Shown here piece by piece: positions 1-24,146 of a DNA stretch of 24,305 nt. A model generated the notes under the pieces. That model was given only the letters and a program-made list of their open reading frames with translations. It did no database searches and was not told the DNA's origin. The stretch lies in IMG/VR virus record IMGVR_UViG_3300044998_000741, positions 1-24,305 of that record; one strand, 5' to 3'. A program made the position numbers and the translations under genes. This DNA is from a virus. Each line of letters starts with the position of its first letter. Position 1 is the stretch's first letter.

Positions 1-361
1 CCTCGCTCCCCGCCCCGGAGACCGAGAAGGCAAAGGTGTTCTGGGCTGTCCACGCCGGACCTCCGCGCACCCTCAGCAGCCGGTGCACCACGTAGCTCCG
101 CGACTGGCAGCGTATCGAGACGGCACCGTTCACCGCGCCGATAAGCGGCGGACTGTCAGGCTCCCACGCCTCGATCGTGATCGGCACGCCGGAGGTGCCC
201 GACGCGGGCACGTCCCACGTTGCCGCGAGCTGTCCCTCGCCCTTGATCTTGACCGTGTCCCCCGGCGAGAGGCTGGTCACGCTCGCGAGGGTGTTGTACG
301 GGTTAAGCTCGCTGCCCGTCCCATTGGACAATGCCGACAGATTGACAAAAACTTTTGCCAT
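1..361 (-). CDS. Beta-helix (pectate-lyase-like) virion protein, N-terminal part, cut by window edge
   Basis: The first 120 codons of a leftward gene whose 3' end lies outside the window. The N-terminus reads MAKVFVNLSALSNGTGSELN, then a stretch with NTLASV and LSPGDTVKIKGEG. This pattern (short strand, 'G(T/S)G...NP', then 'L.PGD.V.I..G') is typical of the start of right-handed parallel beta-helix proteins used as phage tail spikes or polysaccharide-binding and degrading domains. The ATG overlaps the TGA of the preceding glycosidase gene as TGATG, so the two are probably translationally coupled. Fold and role are inferred from this pattern; no catalytic residue can be assigned from the part visible. 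Confidence 0.72.
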   Translation of the reverse strand, partial: MAKVFVNLSALSNGTGSELNPYNTLASVTSLSPGDTVKIKGEGQLAATWDVPASGTSGVPITIEAWEPDSPPLIGAVNGAVSIRCQSRSYVVHRLLRVRGGPAWTAQNTFAFSVSGAGSE

Positions 362-2175
362 CAGACCTCCCTCTCCACCGCGTCGCGCTCGTCCACCGCA
401 GGCCCAAAAGTCACGCCTGCGCCGAGCGTCCCTGCGTTCCACCGCGCGCTGTCCCGCGCGTCGGCCTCGAGCTTCCAGCGCGCCACGCAGCCCGTAAGCT
501 GCTCTCCGTCCATCACCCGCTGCACGTCGGCGTGCCTGAGCGCACGGTCGTACATCTGCACATCCGAGATGCGGCCGGCAAAATGCGCGCTCGATCCGTC
601 CGACCCGATCACCAGGTCAGATGTCGAGTGCGCCCACGTGTGGCCCGCCGGCAGCGTCAGCTGGCCGCCGATGGACATGCCGTCGGTATACACGCGCAGC
701 GCGGTGCCGTCCCAGGTGAGCGCGTAGTGGTGCCATCCGTCGTCGCCAACGAGCACCCCGCCGAGGGTTTTCACGTCGGCGGCGCTGCCGCCGTTGTCGG
801 TCACGAGCTGGCCGTACACCTCCCCGTAGGACGTGCCCGCGCTCGGGGCCTGCACGAGCGCGAAGCCGCGCGGGGGCGAGGTCGTCGCACACGCAAGCAC
901 GCGCTGTGAGAGTGTGCTCGACGGACGCGCGCACTTGACCCAGGCGGCCAGCGTGAAGGCTGCCGGCTTGATCCCCGCCGCGTGCGGCACCGTGATGATG
1001 CTGTCCGCCGCCCCGCTGAGATACGCGCACGCCGCGAAAGGCGGCCGCGTCGCGCGGTAGCGGGGCGACACGTACGCCGCCGCAGCAGGCGTGCGGTTGT
1101 GCATGGCCACCGCATCGAGCCTCTGCCTGCCACGCGTCTCGCCCGGCCAGATGCCCCAGGCATTGTCGTCCGCGGCAGGGCAGAGCTGCCACTCCAGCAT
1201 CAGCGGCACGCCCGCAGACCGCAATGCGTCGTACATGCCGAGCACCTTGGCGCCGGCCGGGTCGTTGTGCGCGGCCACGGCGTCCCCGGAAATCCGCGCG
1301 CCGAACTCGGTCACGATCAAGGGCCGGTCCGCGCCCCACCTCTCGACGCACTCCTCCGCGAGCGCCGCCACACTCTCCACGGTGTAGTCGGTGCCGTCCG
1401 CGCCCAGGTAAGGATGCACGCCCACGGCGTCGAGCACGTCCGGCAGGCAGCGGTGCGGGAACGCCCGCGCGAAATAGTGCGCCCCCGAGGCCCGCGCCAC
1501 GCCGCGCCCGTGGCCGCCCATGCAAAACGCCGCCGGATCCGCGGCCTTGATGACATTGGCAACGGTGCGCAGGTAGACGCTCGCGGCGGAGTGCCAGAGC
1601 ACGTCCTGCGGCGCCGCGTAGCTCGCGGGCGTGCCAAGCGCGACGTTGGTCTCCGGGAGCACCCCAGCGCCCCAGCCGTAGACGTCCAGCTCACCAGAGA
1701 TGCACCAGCCCGCCAGCGCATCGTGTGCGCCGAATGCGCTCACCATCTGCGCGCTGATCTGCCGCAGATAATCGCACGCCGCGGAGGCCGGGTCTGCCAC
1801 CGAGCTCACCGGCGCCCCCACGACATCAGCAGGGTCCGCCGCTCGCCAGAAAGGCACCACCAGCAGCGACACCCGCCTCGAGGAGGCGTAGTCCAGCATG
1901 TTAATGACCAGGTCGATGTAGGGCTGGCGCAGCGTGTAGTGGGGTGCGGCGTACCTCCACACGTACCTCTCGAGATTGGTCTTGTACCGCGGCGCGATGG
2001 GCACCCGCAGGACCTTGGCGCCCACCGCCGCCGCGTGCTCGATCGCCTCGCGCCAGGTGGTGGTGCCCGAGGTGAACGCCCTCTCGAACGGGTAGAAGGA
2101 GTTGAACCCGATATGCCCGCGCAGCGCCTCGCCCCCCAGGTAAAGCCTGCGCCCGTTTGCGCGCAGCTTAGGCAT
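361..2175 (-). CDS. Glycosidase-like TIM barrel (clan GH-A type) fused to LamG domain; likely virion depolymerase
   Basis: 604 aa from the ATG at 2175, which overlaps the previous stop as TGATG; a longer upstream reading would run far into that gene. Residues about 15-340 look like a clan GH-A (GH5-like) barrel: 'WCISGELDVYGW' supplies a candidate acid/base Glu162, 'VGVHPYLG' a conserved His, and 'PLIVTEFGARIS' a candidate nucleophile Glu290. Residues about 385-590 look like a concanavalin/LamG domain ('AFTLAAWVK', 'DGWHHYALTWDGT', 'GRISDVQMYDRAL'). No signal peptide is seen, consistent with a virion protein rather than a secreted enzyme. I infer a tail- or capsid-associated enzyme acting on host surface polysaccharide. 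The acid/base motif is GEL rather than the usual NEP, so activity is not assured. Confidence 0.8.
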   Translation of the reverse strand: MPKLRANGRRLYLGGEALRGHIGFNSFYPFERAFTSGTTTWREAIEHAAAVGAKVLRVPIAPRYKTNLERYVWRYAAPHYTLRQPYIDLVINMLDYASSRRVSLLVVPFWRAADPADVVGAPVSSVADPASAACDYLRQISAQMVSAFGAHDALAGWCISGELDVYGWGAGVLPETNVALGTPASYAAPQDVLWHSAASVYLRTVANVIKAADPAAFCMGGHGRGVARASGAHYFARAFPHRCLPDVLDAVGVHPYLGADGTDYTVESVAALAEECVERWGADRPLIVTEFGARISGDAVAAHNDPAGAKVLGMYDALRSAGVPLMLEWQLCPAADDNAWGIWPGETRGRQRLDAVAMHNRTPAAAAYVSPRYRATRPPFAACAYLSGAADSIITVPHAAGIKPAAFTLAAWVKCARPSSTLSQRVLACATTSPPRGFALVQAPSAGTSYGEVYGQLVTDNGGSAADVKTLGGVLVGDDGWHHYALTWDGTALRVYTDGMSIGGQLTLPAGHTWAHSTSDLVIGSDGSSAHFAGRISDVQMYDRALRHADVQRVMDGEQLTGCVARWKLEADARDSARWNAGTLGAGVTFGPAVDERDAVEREV

Positions 2176-2594
2176 CAGGCAAAAGTCCCGGAGGCCAGGT
2201 AGTGGCAGTTGGCCATTGTGCCTGAGCACGTGATGTTGATCCGCCAGCCGCCATCGACGCTAATCAGCCCGCCCAGGTCGATCTCCACGAAGGCATTGTC
2301 CGCCAACGTGCGGGTGTACGCCTGCAGCACGGTCGATCCGTCCTTGATCTGTACTGTGGCTGGCGCGCTCGCGGAGGCGAGCCGCACCACGACCTTGCGC
2401 AGTCGGTCTCCTGCCGCGCCGCCATTGGCCCCGAGCGCGATGTCAACGGCCGTCGTGACGCCCGCACCGGCCTGGTACTGCACGCCCGAGTCGTAGCCGC
2501 CGAAGCCGTGCCGCTTGTCCTCTCGCGAGAACATGTTCTTGACCCAAGTCCACGCCGAGCCGTCATTCTCGTACGCTTGATATCCAACCAGCAT
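2175..2594 (-). CDS. Phage virion-associated beta-rich hypothetical protein
   Basis: 139 aa; ATG at 2594 with a GAGGAAG ribosome-binding site just upstream on the - strand. It opens MLVGYQAYENDGSAWTWVKN and contains 'GVTTAVDIALGANGGAAGDRL', which suggests a beta-sandwich. No signal peptide or membrane segment is seen. Its stop overlaps the start of the glycosidase gene (TGATG), so it is probably made in step with it. Together with its neighbours it forms a run of surface/adsorption-type proteins. A role in the baseplate or fibre is inferred from context only. Confidence 0.65.
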   Translation of the reverse strand: MLVGYQAYENDGSAWTWVKNMFSREDKRHGFGGYDSGVQYQAGAGVTTAVDIALGANGGAAGDRLRKVVVRLASASAPATVQIKDGSTVLQAYTRTLADNAFVEIDLGGLISVDGGWRINITCSGTMANCHYLASGTFA

Positions 2595-10055: not shown

Positions 10056-10075
10056 GAGGCGCCGCCCTCCGCACC

Positions 10076-10100
10076 CAAATACGACACTGTGTCGTATTTG
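10076..10100. repeat. 25-bp palindrome, copy 1
   Basis: CAAATACGACA, then CTG, then TGTCGTATTTG: 11-bp perfect arms around a 3-bp centre. It is the exact reverse complement of copy 2. A DNA-binding site for a dimeric regulator is the simplest reading. Confidence 0.85.
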
Positions 10101-10137
10101 TTTACGCCTGGCGCAAAGCCTTTGCAGCCAATGCAAT

Positions 10138-10162
10138 CAAATACGACACAGTGTCGTATTTG
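10138..10162. repeat. 25-bp palindrome, copy 2
   Basis: Same arms as copy 1 with centre CAG, so it equals copy 1 read on the other strand. The 37 bp between the two copies hold no recognisable promoter. Two copies so close could be bridged by one protein or bound cooperatively. Confidence 0.85.
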
Positions 10163-10209
10163 CCCCCGGCCCGGCAGCGGCCCAGCTGCGTCACGCATCC
10201 GCATTGCGC

Positions 10210-15262: not shown

Positions 15263-16189
15263 ATGGCACGCCCCGCCAAGCCCGCGCCCGAGTCAGCCCT
15301 GCAGCCCATCAACGACACCGTACTGCGTCAAGACCTCGACGCCGCCACAGCGCTCGGGCAGCAGATCACCGTCATCGATGAGCAGTACGGCGACGCTGTC
15401 CCCTACGACCTGCAGCGCCTCATCCACGAGACGCGCTTTTACCTGTCGCAGTCTGCCGAGGCCATGCTCGAGGCCGGCCGGCGGCTCATCCTGATCAAAG
15501 AGCACGAGCCGCACGGGCTTTTCCTTGACGCGCTCCATGCCATCGGCATTGATGAGCGCACCGCGCAGCGCTTCATGCGCGCGGCATTGCGCTTCGGCGA
15601 CGAGGCCCGGGAGCTCGCGCGTCTGGGCCGCACCAAGCTCTACGAGCTGGCCTACCTCGACGACGAGGAGATCGATGCGCTGCGCGAGGGCGGCACGGTC
15701 GCCGGTCTGAGCCTCGACGACATCGACCGCATGTCCGTCGCCGAGCTGCGCACCAGTCTGCGCAAGATGCGTCACGACGCCAAGGAGGCCGAGGAGATGC
15801 ACGAGCGACAGCTCCTCGACAAGAACCGCAAGATCGACGACCTCGCGCGCGCCCTGGCGCGGCGCGATCGCATGCCGCCCGAGGACCGCGTACAGGAACT
15901 CGTCGGCGACATCTGGCACGCCGTCGGTCACTTCCTCCCGGCCCAGGAGGAACTGCGCGCTGCGTTCGACGCCGTGCGCAACGCCCAGTCCGAGGACGCC
16001 ATCCAGCCCGGTGCCATCTACACCGCGCAGTGCCAGGCCCTCGTCTGGCTCATGCAGCGCCTCGAGGACATCCGTCGCGAGTTCCACCTCTACGACGTCT
16101 CGCCGCTCGAGCCCGTGTCCGCGCCCTGGGAGGCCGCGCCACAAGACGCCCAGGCCGCAGAGTCACAGCAAGACCGCGCAGCCGCCTGA
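15263..16189 (+). CDS. DUF3102-like protein upstream of transposase
   Basis: 308 aa; ATG 15263 with AGGAG six bases upstream. 'SQSAEAMLEAGRRLILIKEHEPHGLFLDALHAIGIDERTAQRFMRAALRF' and 'LGRTKLYELAYLDDEEI' match the DUF3102 pattern ('..G..L...K..L.HG.F..wL...g.s...A..fM..A..'), also seen in plasmid/phage ParB-like HTH proteins. A charged coiled coil at about residues 165-210 and a C-terminal helical part follow. The family often sits in replication or transposition loci, with no proven function in phages that I know. A DNA-binding helper for transposition is inferred. Confidence 0.72.
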   Translation: MARPAKPAPESALQPINDTVLRQDLDAATALGQQITVIDEQYGDAVPYDLQRLIHETRFYLSQSAEAMLEAGRRLILIKEHEPHGLFLDALHAIGIDERTAQRFMRAALRFGDEARELARLGRTKLYELAYLDDEEIDALREGGTVAGLSLDDIDRMSVAELRTSLRKMRHDAKEAEEMHERQLLDKNRKIDDLARALARRDRMPPEDRVQELVGDIWHAVGHFLPAQEELRAAFDAVRNAQSEDAIQPGAIYTAQCQALVWLMQRLEDIRREFHLYDVSPLEPVSAPWEAAPQDAQAAESQQDRAAA

Positions 16190-19572: not shown

Positions 19573-20070
19573 ATGACCGCCACAATGATCATCATCCTCT
19601 GTGCACTTGCCGCCGGAATGCTCCTCCTCTGGTGGTGTGTCATGACCCTCTCGTCGGCGATCGACGCGACCGTCACCGCGCCCGAGCTCGCGCCCGCCGC
19701 GCCCGCCACCTGGGTCGAGCCCGACGATGCGCCGGTGCTGCCAGACGCCGAGCTCGACCGCTGGGGCAAGATCTACCGATCCAACCCCCGCATCGCTGCG
19801 CGCGGCATCCCCTTCGACACCTTCGTGCGGGCGCCGCAGAAGATCCTTGCCGCTGTCATAGTCCGCGCTGACCAGGTGCCGGAGGACGTGGTCGATGCGC
19901 ACATCATGCGTGTCGAGCGACTGCTCGAGCGCGATCGCCGCCGCCACGACCTCGTCCAGCGTGGCGGCGGGCTCGTGGAGCCGATGCACCACCACCGGCA
20001 CTACAAGCCGGCTCCGAGCCGTCACAACCCTAAGATCCTTTCCGGGAGCCGCACATGGCCAAAGGCTTGA
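19573..20070 (+). CDS. Membrane-anchored hypothetical protein in early operon
   Basis: 165 aa; ATG 19573 one base after the MuB stop. An N-terminal transmembrane segment (MIIILCALAAGMLLLWWCVM) is followed by a Pro/Ala-rich linker and a soluble helical domain with 'YRSNPRIAARGIPFDTFVRAPQKILAAV' and 'DVVDAHIMRVERLLERDRRRHD'. The tail is rich in His. The last 16 bases overlap the next gene. 'R.GI.F..FL..P..I' is seen in other phage early proteins, function unknown. Confidence 0.68.
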   Translation: MTATMIIILCALAAGMLLLWWCVMTLSSAIDATVTAPELAPAAPATWVEPDDAPVLPDAELDRWGKIYRSNPRIAARGIPFDTFVRAPQKILAAVIVRADQVPEDVVDAHIMRVERLLERDRRRHDLVQRGGGLVEPMHHHRHYKPAPSRHNPKILSGSRTWPKA

Positions 20071-20756
20071 GCAACAGCGGTCGCCCAGAGGCCATCCGCC
20101 AGATGCTGGCGCGGGCCCATGCAGGCCTCACCACCAGGGAGATTGCGGAGGAGCTCGGGATCGAGACGCGCGTCGCCTCGACCAACCTCATCCAGATGGA
20201 GGAGCGCGGAGAGCTGGTGCGCTCGGTCGTCGAGCGCCCGCGCAGGGCGCCGGATATCCTCTGGCGTCTCACCGGCGTCACCGCCGGCGCGAGGCCCTTT
20301 CGGCTGCCCGGTACGCCGCTCTCGCCCAAGCCGCTGCGGCGTGATGAGATCGATCCTCCGGTCGTCAAGGCGGTACGCCTGCTGGGCTCTCACCTCGACC
20401 GCCCGCCTGGGGCGGGCGCGCCGTCGCAGTCGCCGACGCCGACCGTCCTCGAGCAGCAGGCGCCCGAGGCTCCCGAGCGTCCAGCGCCAGCACCTCAGCG
20501 GGTAGAGGTGCCGGCCACGGTGGCGGAGCAGGGCAAATACGACACTGTGACGCATTTGCCCGAGCATCCCGTGGCCACACCCGCCCCCCCGCAGCCGCGG
20601 GGGCAGTTTCGGGCGGCGCTCTACTCGGACGGCACGCTCATCCTCGAGCACGTCCCCAACGGCCCCGAGATCCTCGCACTGTCGCGAGAGTGCTCGCGCA
20701 CCCTGGTCGACTACCTGCTGTCATTCCACAGTCATGCCGACGAGGCGCATGGGTGA
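20055..20756 (+). CDS. Winged-helix (MarR-like) early regulator containing palindrome copy 3
   Basis: 233 aa; ATG 20055 with GGGAG upstream. The N-terminal winged helix is 'IRQMLARAHAGLTTREIAEELGIETRVASTNLIQMEERGELVRSVVERPRRAPDILWRLTG'. A long Pro/Ala-rich linker of about residues 75-185 follows. The C-terminal part has 'FRAALYSDGTLILEHV' and 'LSRECSRTLVDYLLSFH'. The linker contains 'GKYDTVTHLPEH', encoded by an imperfect copy of the 25-bp palindrome found elsewhere in the phage. Target unknown; autoregulation through that site is a possibility. Confidence 0.74.
   Translation: MAKGLSNSGRPEAIRQMLARAHAGLTTREIAEELGIETRVASTNLIQMEERGELVRSVVERPRRAPDILWRLTGVTAGARPFRLPGTPLSPKPLRRDEIDPPVVKAVRLLGSHLDRPPGAGAPSQSPTPTVLEQQAPEAPERPAPAPQRVEVPATVAEQGKYDTVTHLPEHPVATPAPPQPRGQFRAALYSDGTLILEHVPNGPEILALSRECSRTLVDYLLSFHSHADEAHG
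20534..20558. repeat. 25-bp palindrome, copy 3 (diverged, inside CDS)
   Basis: CAAATACGACA, CTG, TGACGCATTTG. The left half equals copy 1; the right half differs at two bases. Flanking GG and CC extend the dyad. It lies in frame within the proline-rich linker of the regulator at 20055-20756. Confidence 0.75.
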
Positions 20757-23809: not shown

Positions 23810-23834
23810 TAAATACGACACGATGTCGTATTTG
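23810..23834. repeat. 25-bp palindrome, copy 4
   Basis: TAAATACGACA, CGA, TGTCGTATTTG: perfect 10-bp arms, with the outermost pair lost. It lies between the convergent ends of the Mor gene and the HTH gene, directly after a possible terminator stem. Beyond it is an 8-base G run (23850-23857). Confidence 0.82.
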
Positions 23835-23912: not shown

Positions 23913-24146
23913 TCACTGACCGCGGGCTTTGCCGCAAAAGAGCTCCCACAGACCGGCGTGCATGCGACGGTCCCCAGCCTCCCACTGCTGCCAGGCTCTG
24001 AGGGATGCATGCACCAGCGCGGCAGCCTGGCTCTGCGTCAGCCCTGCGGCCAGCCGACGAGCCAGTATGTCGGCCGGCGTGGGGCTAGCCGCCGGCCCCG
24101 TGGGGGGCCGGGCGTCTAGCTTGGGATCAGGAGTAGTCCCAGTCAT
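23913..24146 (-). CDS. XRE-like HTH protein at right side
   Basis: 77 aa from ATG 24146 (MTGTTPDPKLDARPPTGP); a longer frame to 24266 would overlap the neighbouring gene and has low-complexity sequence. 'TPADILARRLAAGLTQSQAAALVHASLRAWQQWEAGDRRMHAGLWELF' is a compact HTH similar to phage-associated XRE proteins ('GLTQ..AA.LV....R.WQ.WE.G...M....WELF'). It overlaps the upstream gene by 20 bases and faces the early operon tail to tail. It could act as an antitoxin-type or phage regulator; whether the phage end lies before or after it is not known. Confidence 0.72.
   Translation of the reverse strand: MTGTTPDPKLDARPPTGPAASPTPADILARRLAAGLTQSQAAALVHASLRAWQQWEAGDRRMHAGLWELFCGKARGQ

Follow-up and report, generated by a model that had tools for sequence, protein, structure and literature searches.

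Known systems

The sites of ParB and Noc, parS and NBS, are palindromic and often lie near the gene of the protein that reads them, the O_B operators of plasmid RK2 have a dispersed palindromic layout, and the IR1-4 centromere sites of N15 are dispersed over its genome. The specificity of ParB and Noc is set by a few residues, including position 173, which is R or Q (PMC7383237). KorB of RK2, as outlined in PMC11790492, is a ParB-type repressor that silences over a long range as a CTP-dependent clamp with KorA. The temperate phage N15 has four short inverted repeats, IR1-4, in its genome that are read by the ParB-type protein SopB (PMC7205306). The stoperators of phage L5 are asymmetric 13-mers, which are bound by monomers in an orientation-dependent manner (PMC9283540).

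The system described here consists of palindromes in a B3-like phage and a protein of the DUF3102 family that probably reads them. As in ParB-parS and Noc-NBS, a helix-turn-helix domain of similar predicted fold would meet a palindromic site, but DUF3102 has neither a CTPase match nor, in B3 and Mae-JY22, an annotated partition ATPase, its site usually lies inside a coding sequence, and its specificity changes between close relatives. By analogy, the proposed ParB-type repressor with dispersed palindromic operators would correspond to KorB and O_B, although the CTP-dependent clamp and the KorA partnership are features of KorB, with none seen for DUF3102. N15 differs in being a plasmid prophage with SopA and true partition, whereas the present phage is a transposing one. 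L5 stoperators, at which the bound protein halts transcription elongation, are likewise phage protein sites that are scattered away from promoters and have an immunity-type specificity; however, there are more than twenty of them, whereas one to four copies of the present type were seen. The initial annotation had suggested stoperator-like or partition-type sites, which agrees with sites that are dispersed, sequence-specific and probably read by a protein, but not with their symmetry, since the L5 sites are asymmetric. Judged from the sequences compared, the feature of this system that is most likely new is that the site is usually part of the ParB/Noc-like reader's own gene, so that both switch as one cassette.

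The phage and its relatives

The whole stretch analysed, called the window here, is a 24.3-kb virus record and probably a fragment. Its gene content makes it part of a B3-like transposable phage, an assignment that is based on open reading frames, family matches and comparison with B3, Mae-JY22 and others. The window encodes Mor, GemA, Gam-like, transposase, DUF3102, IclR-like, Ner-like and CI-like proteins, with the late genes on the opposite strand, and the family matches include GemA (E 1e-37), Mor (E 2e-18) and CI (E 7e-12). The gene order is that of B3: Mor, GemA, transposition genes, DUF3102, IclR-like, Ner, repressor, lysis, gp26, terminase and portal. The TnpA of the window is about 39% identical to those of Pseudomonas phages such as PM105 and 52% identical to that of Mae-JY22, the nearest named relative. 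Mae-JY22 is without the window motif and has its own palindrome, CAAAACGGGCGGCGCCGCCCGTTTTG, in three copies, one of them within DUF3102.

Mae-JY22 (L048, PP438414) was deposited as a Microcystis phage, yet it is a GC-rich, B3-like transposable phage, and its host assignment looks doubtful. By eye, a tail-end protein of the window (361-2229) has glycoside-hydrolase-like and LamG-like parts and is perhaps a receptor-binding protein or a depolymerase.

Palindromes of the window

The features of the window are collected in Table 1. All four palindrome copies reported by the initial annotation are present, at positions that shift by one base, and none would be expected by chance in dinucleotide shuffles. 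The 23-bp motif is exact at 10077-10099, 10139-10161 and 23811-23833 (with the centre CGA in the third), and sites 1 and 2 are the longest perfect palindromes within the window. Perfect symmetry is thus seen in three of the copies but not in the one at 20535, which has decayed. Site 2 is, as had been noted, the reverse complement of site 1, which amounts to a centre base of T versus A. The spacing that had been given for the pair is correct between centres, while the sites themselves are separated by 37 bp.

Table 1. Palindromic sites of the window, the proposed reader and associated features
Feature	Position	Strand	Basis or remark
Site 1, perfect 25-bp palindrome CAAATACGACACTGTGTCGTATTTG	10076..10100	.	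direct sequence search
Site 2, perfect 25-bp palindrome CAAATACGACACAGTGTCGTATTTG	10138..10162	.	62 bp from site 1, centre to centre
13-bp palindrome GCAAAGCCTTTGC (GCAAAG-C-CTTTGC)	10113..10125	.	exact midpoint of sites 1 and 2, centre 10119; read from sequence
Degenerate copy, 2 mismatches	20535..20557	.	in frame within gene 20055-20756, encodes KYDTVTHLP
23-bp palindrome AAATACGACACGATGTCGTATTT	23811..23833	.	between 3' ends of mor (+) and HTH gene (-)
Gap holding sites 1 and 2	10059..10209	.	gp26-like gene to small terminase gene
DUF3102-like protein, 308 aa, proposed reader	15263..16189	+	phrog_1748 E 1e-65; PF11300 E 0.0014
Codons of residues 98-109 (ERTAQRFMRAAL), start of predicted recognition helix	15554..15589	+	coevolution, structure model
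Putative half-sites of B3 ORF13 and its Fc22 homologue (other phages)			CAAAACGGACAAC and CAAAAGCGCCAAC

The gap that holds the pair is about 151 bp long and runs from the stop of the Mu gp26-like gene (10210) to about 10058, where the small terminase gene, identified by a PHROG 426 match, probably starts. It had been called the only large gap of the operon; it is the largest of that stretch, but the list of open reading frames has other gaps of about 80-150 bp in the operon. Since the genes at the homologous junction overlap in B3 and are 18 bp apart in Mae-JY22, the gap of the window and its sites are an extra. No sigma-70-like promoter was seen near the pair. Of the sites of the window phage, two belong to the late operon, one is within an early gene and one follows mor. 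An analogy with the strong gyrase site of Mu was rejected because site positions are not conserved.

The DUF3102 protein

The PF11300 match of the window protein falls below the Pfam cut-off; at E ≤ 0.01, this match is found in 31 of 39 aligned DUF3102 members. A confident structure model of the window protein (pLDDT 88) places residues 102-103 near the start of helix 98-121, the predicted recognition helix, whose specificity would reside chiefly in Q102 and R103. Structurally, residues 63-175 come closest to the domains of Noc-DNA, ParB, Spo0J-parS and SopB-DNA. Because the Z score is about 7, which is middling for a helical model, and no Foldseek E-value is significant, the resemblance of the predicted DNA-binding domain to ParB/Noc is support rather than proof. 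A CTPase (ParBc) domain was matched in none of the 39 aligned members, the window protein being included in this domain search, and a PDB sequence search with the family profile returned coiled-coil noise only. In hundreds of E. coli genomes, the NCBI annotation of DUF3102 gives the DUF number only, and none of the three articles that name DUF3102 in the open library searched deals with its function, as judged by title or abstract. In one protein (L015:1236-2129, from G003), the DUF3102 domain is followed by an MT-A70-type adenine methyltransferase-like part with a DPEW motif.

Palindromes within DUF3102 genes

The DUF3102 sample consisted of 106 non-identical genes, which form 74 clusters under 90% identity. 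The helix was placed by alignment column, and a palindrome was sought in the 120 nt that follow the codon for helix residue 99. A score of at least 10 is reached in 44 of the 74 clusters, compared to 5 of 2,960 synonymous-codon shuffles that leave the protein unchanged, and a score of at least 12 in 34 clusters compared to none of the shuffles. Other 120-nt spans of the same genes reach a score of 10 in 4 of 342 cases. The palindromes are 20-30 bp long, follow directly after the helix-turn-helix codons and usually have the form CAAAW, eight variable bases, their mirror and WTTTG. About 20 relatives have no palindrome in the gene or in the available stretch, and the DUF3102 gene of the window has no in-gene palindrome either.

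It is scarcely credible that the palindromes are a by-product of a conserved peptide whose codons happen to be palindromic. DUF3102 genes from three streptococcal loci encode a similar peptide, NVTTLSDLG, with no in-gene palindrome found, so the palindrome does not account for all of the peptide, as such a constraint would have it. However, the encoded peptides vary widely (KYDTVSYL, KRTTLSVL and others) while the symmetry is kept, and copies also occur outside genes (window, L058, L075, L080 and L192). For the family as a whole, this explanation is refuted by the shuffles, in which keeping the protein abolishes the palindromes.

Intragenic copies outside DUF3102 share the reading frame of the in-gene copies: KYDTVTHLP at 20535 of the window, KRAAPPVL twice in Mae-JY22, NAPTSAHL in L058, KNDSVSHLE in G002 and KYDTVSYL in G006, the frame being ambiguous for one further copy in G002. 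Either the sites were copied outward from the gene or this frame is the one best tolerated.

Coevolution of helix and core

Mutual information between each DUF3102 column and the palindrome core was calculated over 44 representatives. It is highest for the columns that the palindrome itself encodes, which is trivial, and for Q102 (z 13), followed by 88, 98, 97, 100, 109 and 103; position 102 and these six are all in or beside the predicted helix-turn-helix. The best column of the IclR-like protein or TnpA has less than half the information on the core that the best DUF3102 columns have. Q at residue 102 goes with a GCG or ACG core (22/22), R with CGN (16/16) and V or A with GTG or ATG (5/5), while R at residue 103 goes with C at base 10 in 26 of 27 cases and other residues there go mostly with A. 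On the tree of TnpA, a separate gene, 9 of 9 independent contrasts agree for Q or R at residue 102 (p 0.004) and 10-11 of 12, with none contrary, for residue 103 and base 10 (p about 0.001); this is a quick tree with some long branches. Outside the training set, the residue-102 rule fits 13 of 15 cases (p 0.0003), and 8 of 10 (p 0.007) when the ACG cases, which the motif search itself had selected, are removed. The exceptions are L084 (Q with CCG) and L075 (A with GTT).

Sister phages are about 80-100% identical in the flanks and about 43-66% identical around nucleotides 240-420 of the gene, which hold the helix and the palindrome. By sequence comparison, therefore, they differ mainly in a stretch of about 180 bp that may be termed a specificity cassette. 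Phages without an in-gene copy, the window included, mostly have palindromes elsewhere that match their own helix. For the window helix, ERTAQRFM, the rule calls for a GCG or ACG core, and ACG is what the dispersed palindromes of the window contain. In L058, whose terL is 82% identical to that of the window, three palindromes in the homologous gap and one in the portal gene are of another specificity and have the core GCGCCG, which fits the helix of L058. Since these gap sites fit their own helix and the gap spacers of the two phages align (shuffle p 0.001), several sites seem to have changed in step with the protein.

In L175 (7310-7365), a perfect 20-bp palindrome, CAAATGCGTCGACGCATTTG, lies beside a second CAAAACGGCAAGC-type site and is perhaps a leftover of another specificity.

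Occurrence in other genomes

A blind scan with the 18-base core gave 14 viral and 10 genomic stretches, the latter from 84,980 genomes (257 billion bases), where about four chance matches are expected by our own estimate. In these genomes the motif is not a common repeat; the initial annotation had held that a phage-specific control system would be unlikely if the motif were common throughout the host chromosome. It had held the same for the case that relatives keep all candidate binders and lack the motif; the relatives without this motif mostly carry another palindrome that fits their own DUF3102. The exact window motif, together with a like helix, occurs in five other elements, two of them within bacterial genomes. 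G001 (L012), G002 and G003 have it with the DUF3102 helix RxA[QE]RY. The first of these is a relative of the window phage and has a single perfect copy directly upstream of a ner-like gene. In the other two, the motif is within the DUF3102 gene, and G002 has four copies at up to 2 mismatches; at the sensitivity used, G002 shares only DUF3102 with the window, and G003 has no window homologue at E 1e-3, though its DUF3102 could be aligned. The proteobacterial MAG G005 has the helix PRTAQRYI, the palindrome CAAATACGACAGCGCTGTCGTATTTG 33 bp upstream of the probable DUF3102 start and about eight further dispersed variants. The Spirochaeta MAG contig G006, which reads as part of a transposable prophage, has the helix DRTAQRYI and one exact copy in frame within a CI-like repressor gene.

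The search for DUF3102 gave no match in eight other core-bearing genomes, where some of the core matches are AT-rich hairpins. The AT-rich viral, Ligilactobacillus and Streptococcus matches, which lie between A and T runs and resemble hairpin terminators, were set aside. Searching named phages and plasmids with the motif by blastn gave no convincing match, and a TnpA single-sequence search of viral contigs gave no confirmed one.

G005 has a second DUF3102 gene, with the helix ARTVTNYM and two copies of the palindrome CAAATCGGAAAATGATTTCCGATTTG at its 5' end (L191:1823-1850 and 1921-1946). Behind the Mor-like gene of G001 there is, by eye, a papain-type (C1) cysteine protease-like gene (L012:13273-14073), an unusual phage cargo.

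Alternative explanations

The initial annotation had proposed CI, the winged-helix protein at 20055 or the HTH protein at 23913 as binder; coevolution probably points to DUF3102, which was not on that list. Operators of another phage regulator (CI-like, Ner, IclR-like or the HTH proteins 20055/23913), with DUF3102 merely travelling along, are improbable. Some sites do lie beside regulator genes (L012 has one upstream of ner, and L094, L095 and G006 have theirs within the repressor gene or at its end) and the IclR-like gene adjoins DUF3102 in many relatives, but IclR-like columns carry little information on the core, G002 and G003 have the motif while, at the sensitivity used, only DUF3102 is common with the window, and the G005 site is directly upstream of the DUF3102 gene. 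The coevolution test covered DUF3102, the IclR-like protein and TnpA. RNA hairpins that terminate, stabilise or process the transcript are less probable still. Although RNA of the pair is predicted to form a highly stable stem (-74 kcal/mol, z -10.7), the pair contains no terminator-like site, that is, no GC-rich hairpin followed by a T run, and the stability predicted for the single site at 23811 is unremarkable (z -1.6 and -0.8). Beyond pairing, moreover, the core sequence is common to the copies of one phage and goes with the helix residues.

A parS-like role, in which a ParB-type DUF3102 marks phage DNA for segregation, transposition synapsis or target choice, is unlikely but is the strongest of these alternatives. 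The ParB/Noc/SopB-like domain would suit it, as would the few dispersed palindromes, which recall N15 and often include one beside or inside the reader's gene. Against it stand the missing CTPase match and the lack of an annotated ParA in the complete B3 and Mae-JY22, and B3-like phages live integrated or transposing, which counts against partition. The paired or tripled late-operon sites and the repressor-gene sites do not need a partition role.

Proposed function

The scattered palindromes are probably recognised by the DUF3102 protein that the phage itself encodes, which would act as a KorB-like regulator away from promoters. The sequences themselves show the sites, the cassette and a match to the helix that is particular to each phage. 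From them we infer that DUF3102 binds each site directly, presumably as a dimer, through its predicted ParB/Noc-like helix-turn-helix domain. The outer CAAAW/WTTTG is constant in the family, while the core is phage-specific and varies with residues 102 and 103 and those near them. Since most relatives have the site within the DUF3102 gene, reader and site make up a single specificity cassette there, which can be exchanged as a unit and lies upstream of the transposase genes. The bound protein would most likely tune transcription away from promoters, either by blocking or slowing RNA polymerase or by forming a local nucleoprotein. Its target would be the operon for early and transposition functions in most relatives, to which the window phage would add the late operon.

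The sites are mostly in transcribed regions, a distribution in keeping with a regulator that, like KorB, does not work at promoters only. They are found in the DUF3102 gene itself, between the IclR-like gene and DUF3102 (L075, L080), in or beside the repressor gene (L094, L095, G006), upstream of ner (L012) and in the late operon (window, L058). Since these positions vary, no single regulatory target is conserved. What binding would do is the least certain point, and a role in transposition or a partition-like one is the alternative.

Coevolution assigns to DUF3102 a likely molecular function and a site, and it yields part of a recognition code that relates residues to bases. The design is unusual in that the cognate site is usually inside the reader's coding sequence, adjoining the codons that read it, and specificity and site would stay linked through recombination. 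The DUF3102 family may supply orthogonal reader-site pairs.

More tentatively, DUF3102 could represent a new class of specificity-switching phage regulators, in which a hypervariable cassette of about 180 bp with reader and address is swapped between near-identical phages and serves a second, CI-independent, immunity-like compatibility system, the window phage having moved its address to the late operon. If so, several related transposing prophages could share one cell without cross-control. Pairs of prophages with the same cassette are rare in E. coli, a rarity that is no more than suggestive, given that both clonality and linked CI immunity are confounders, and some E. coli carry two prophages whose DUF3102 cassettes differ (R4 and E94 are examples). 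The prophage type occurs in 631 of 5,426 complete E. coli genomes (tnpA at 699 places), and the PhiKM-type cassette occurs at 392 places in 390 E. coli genomes.
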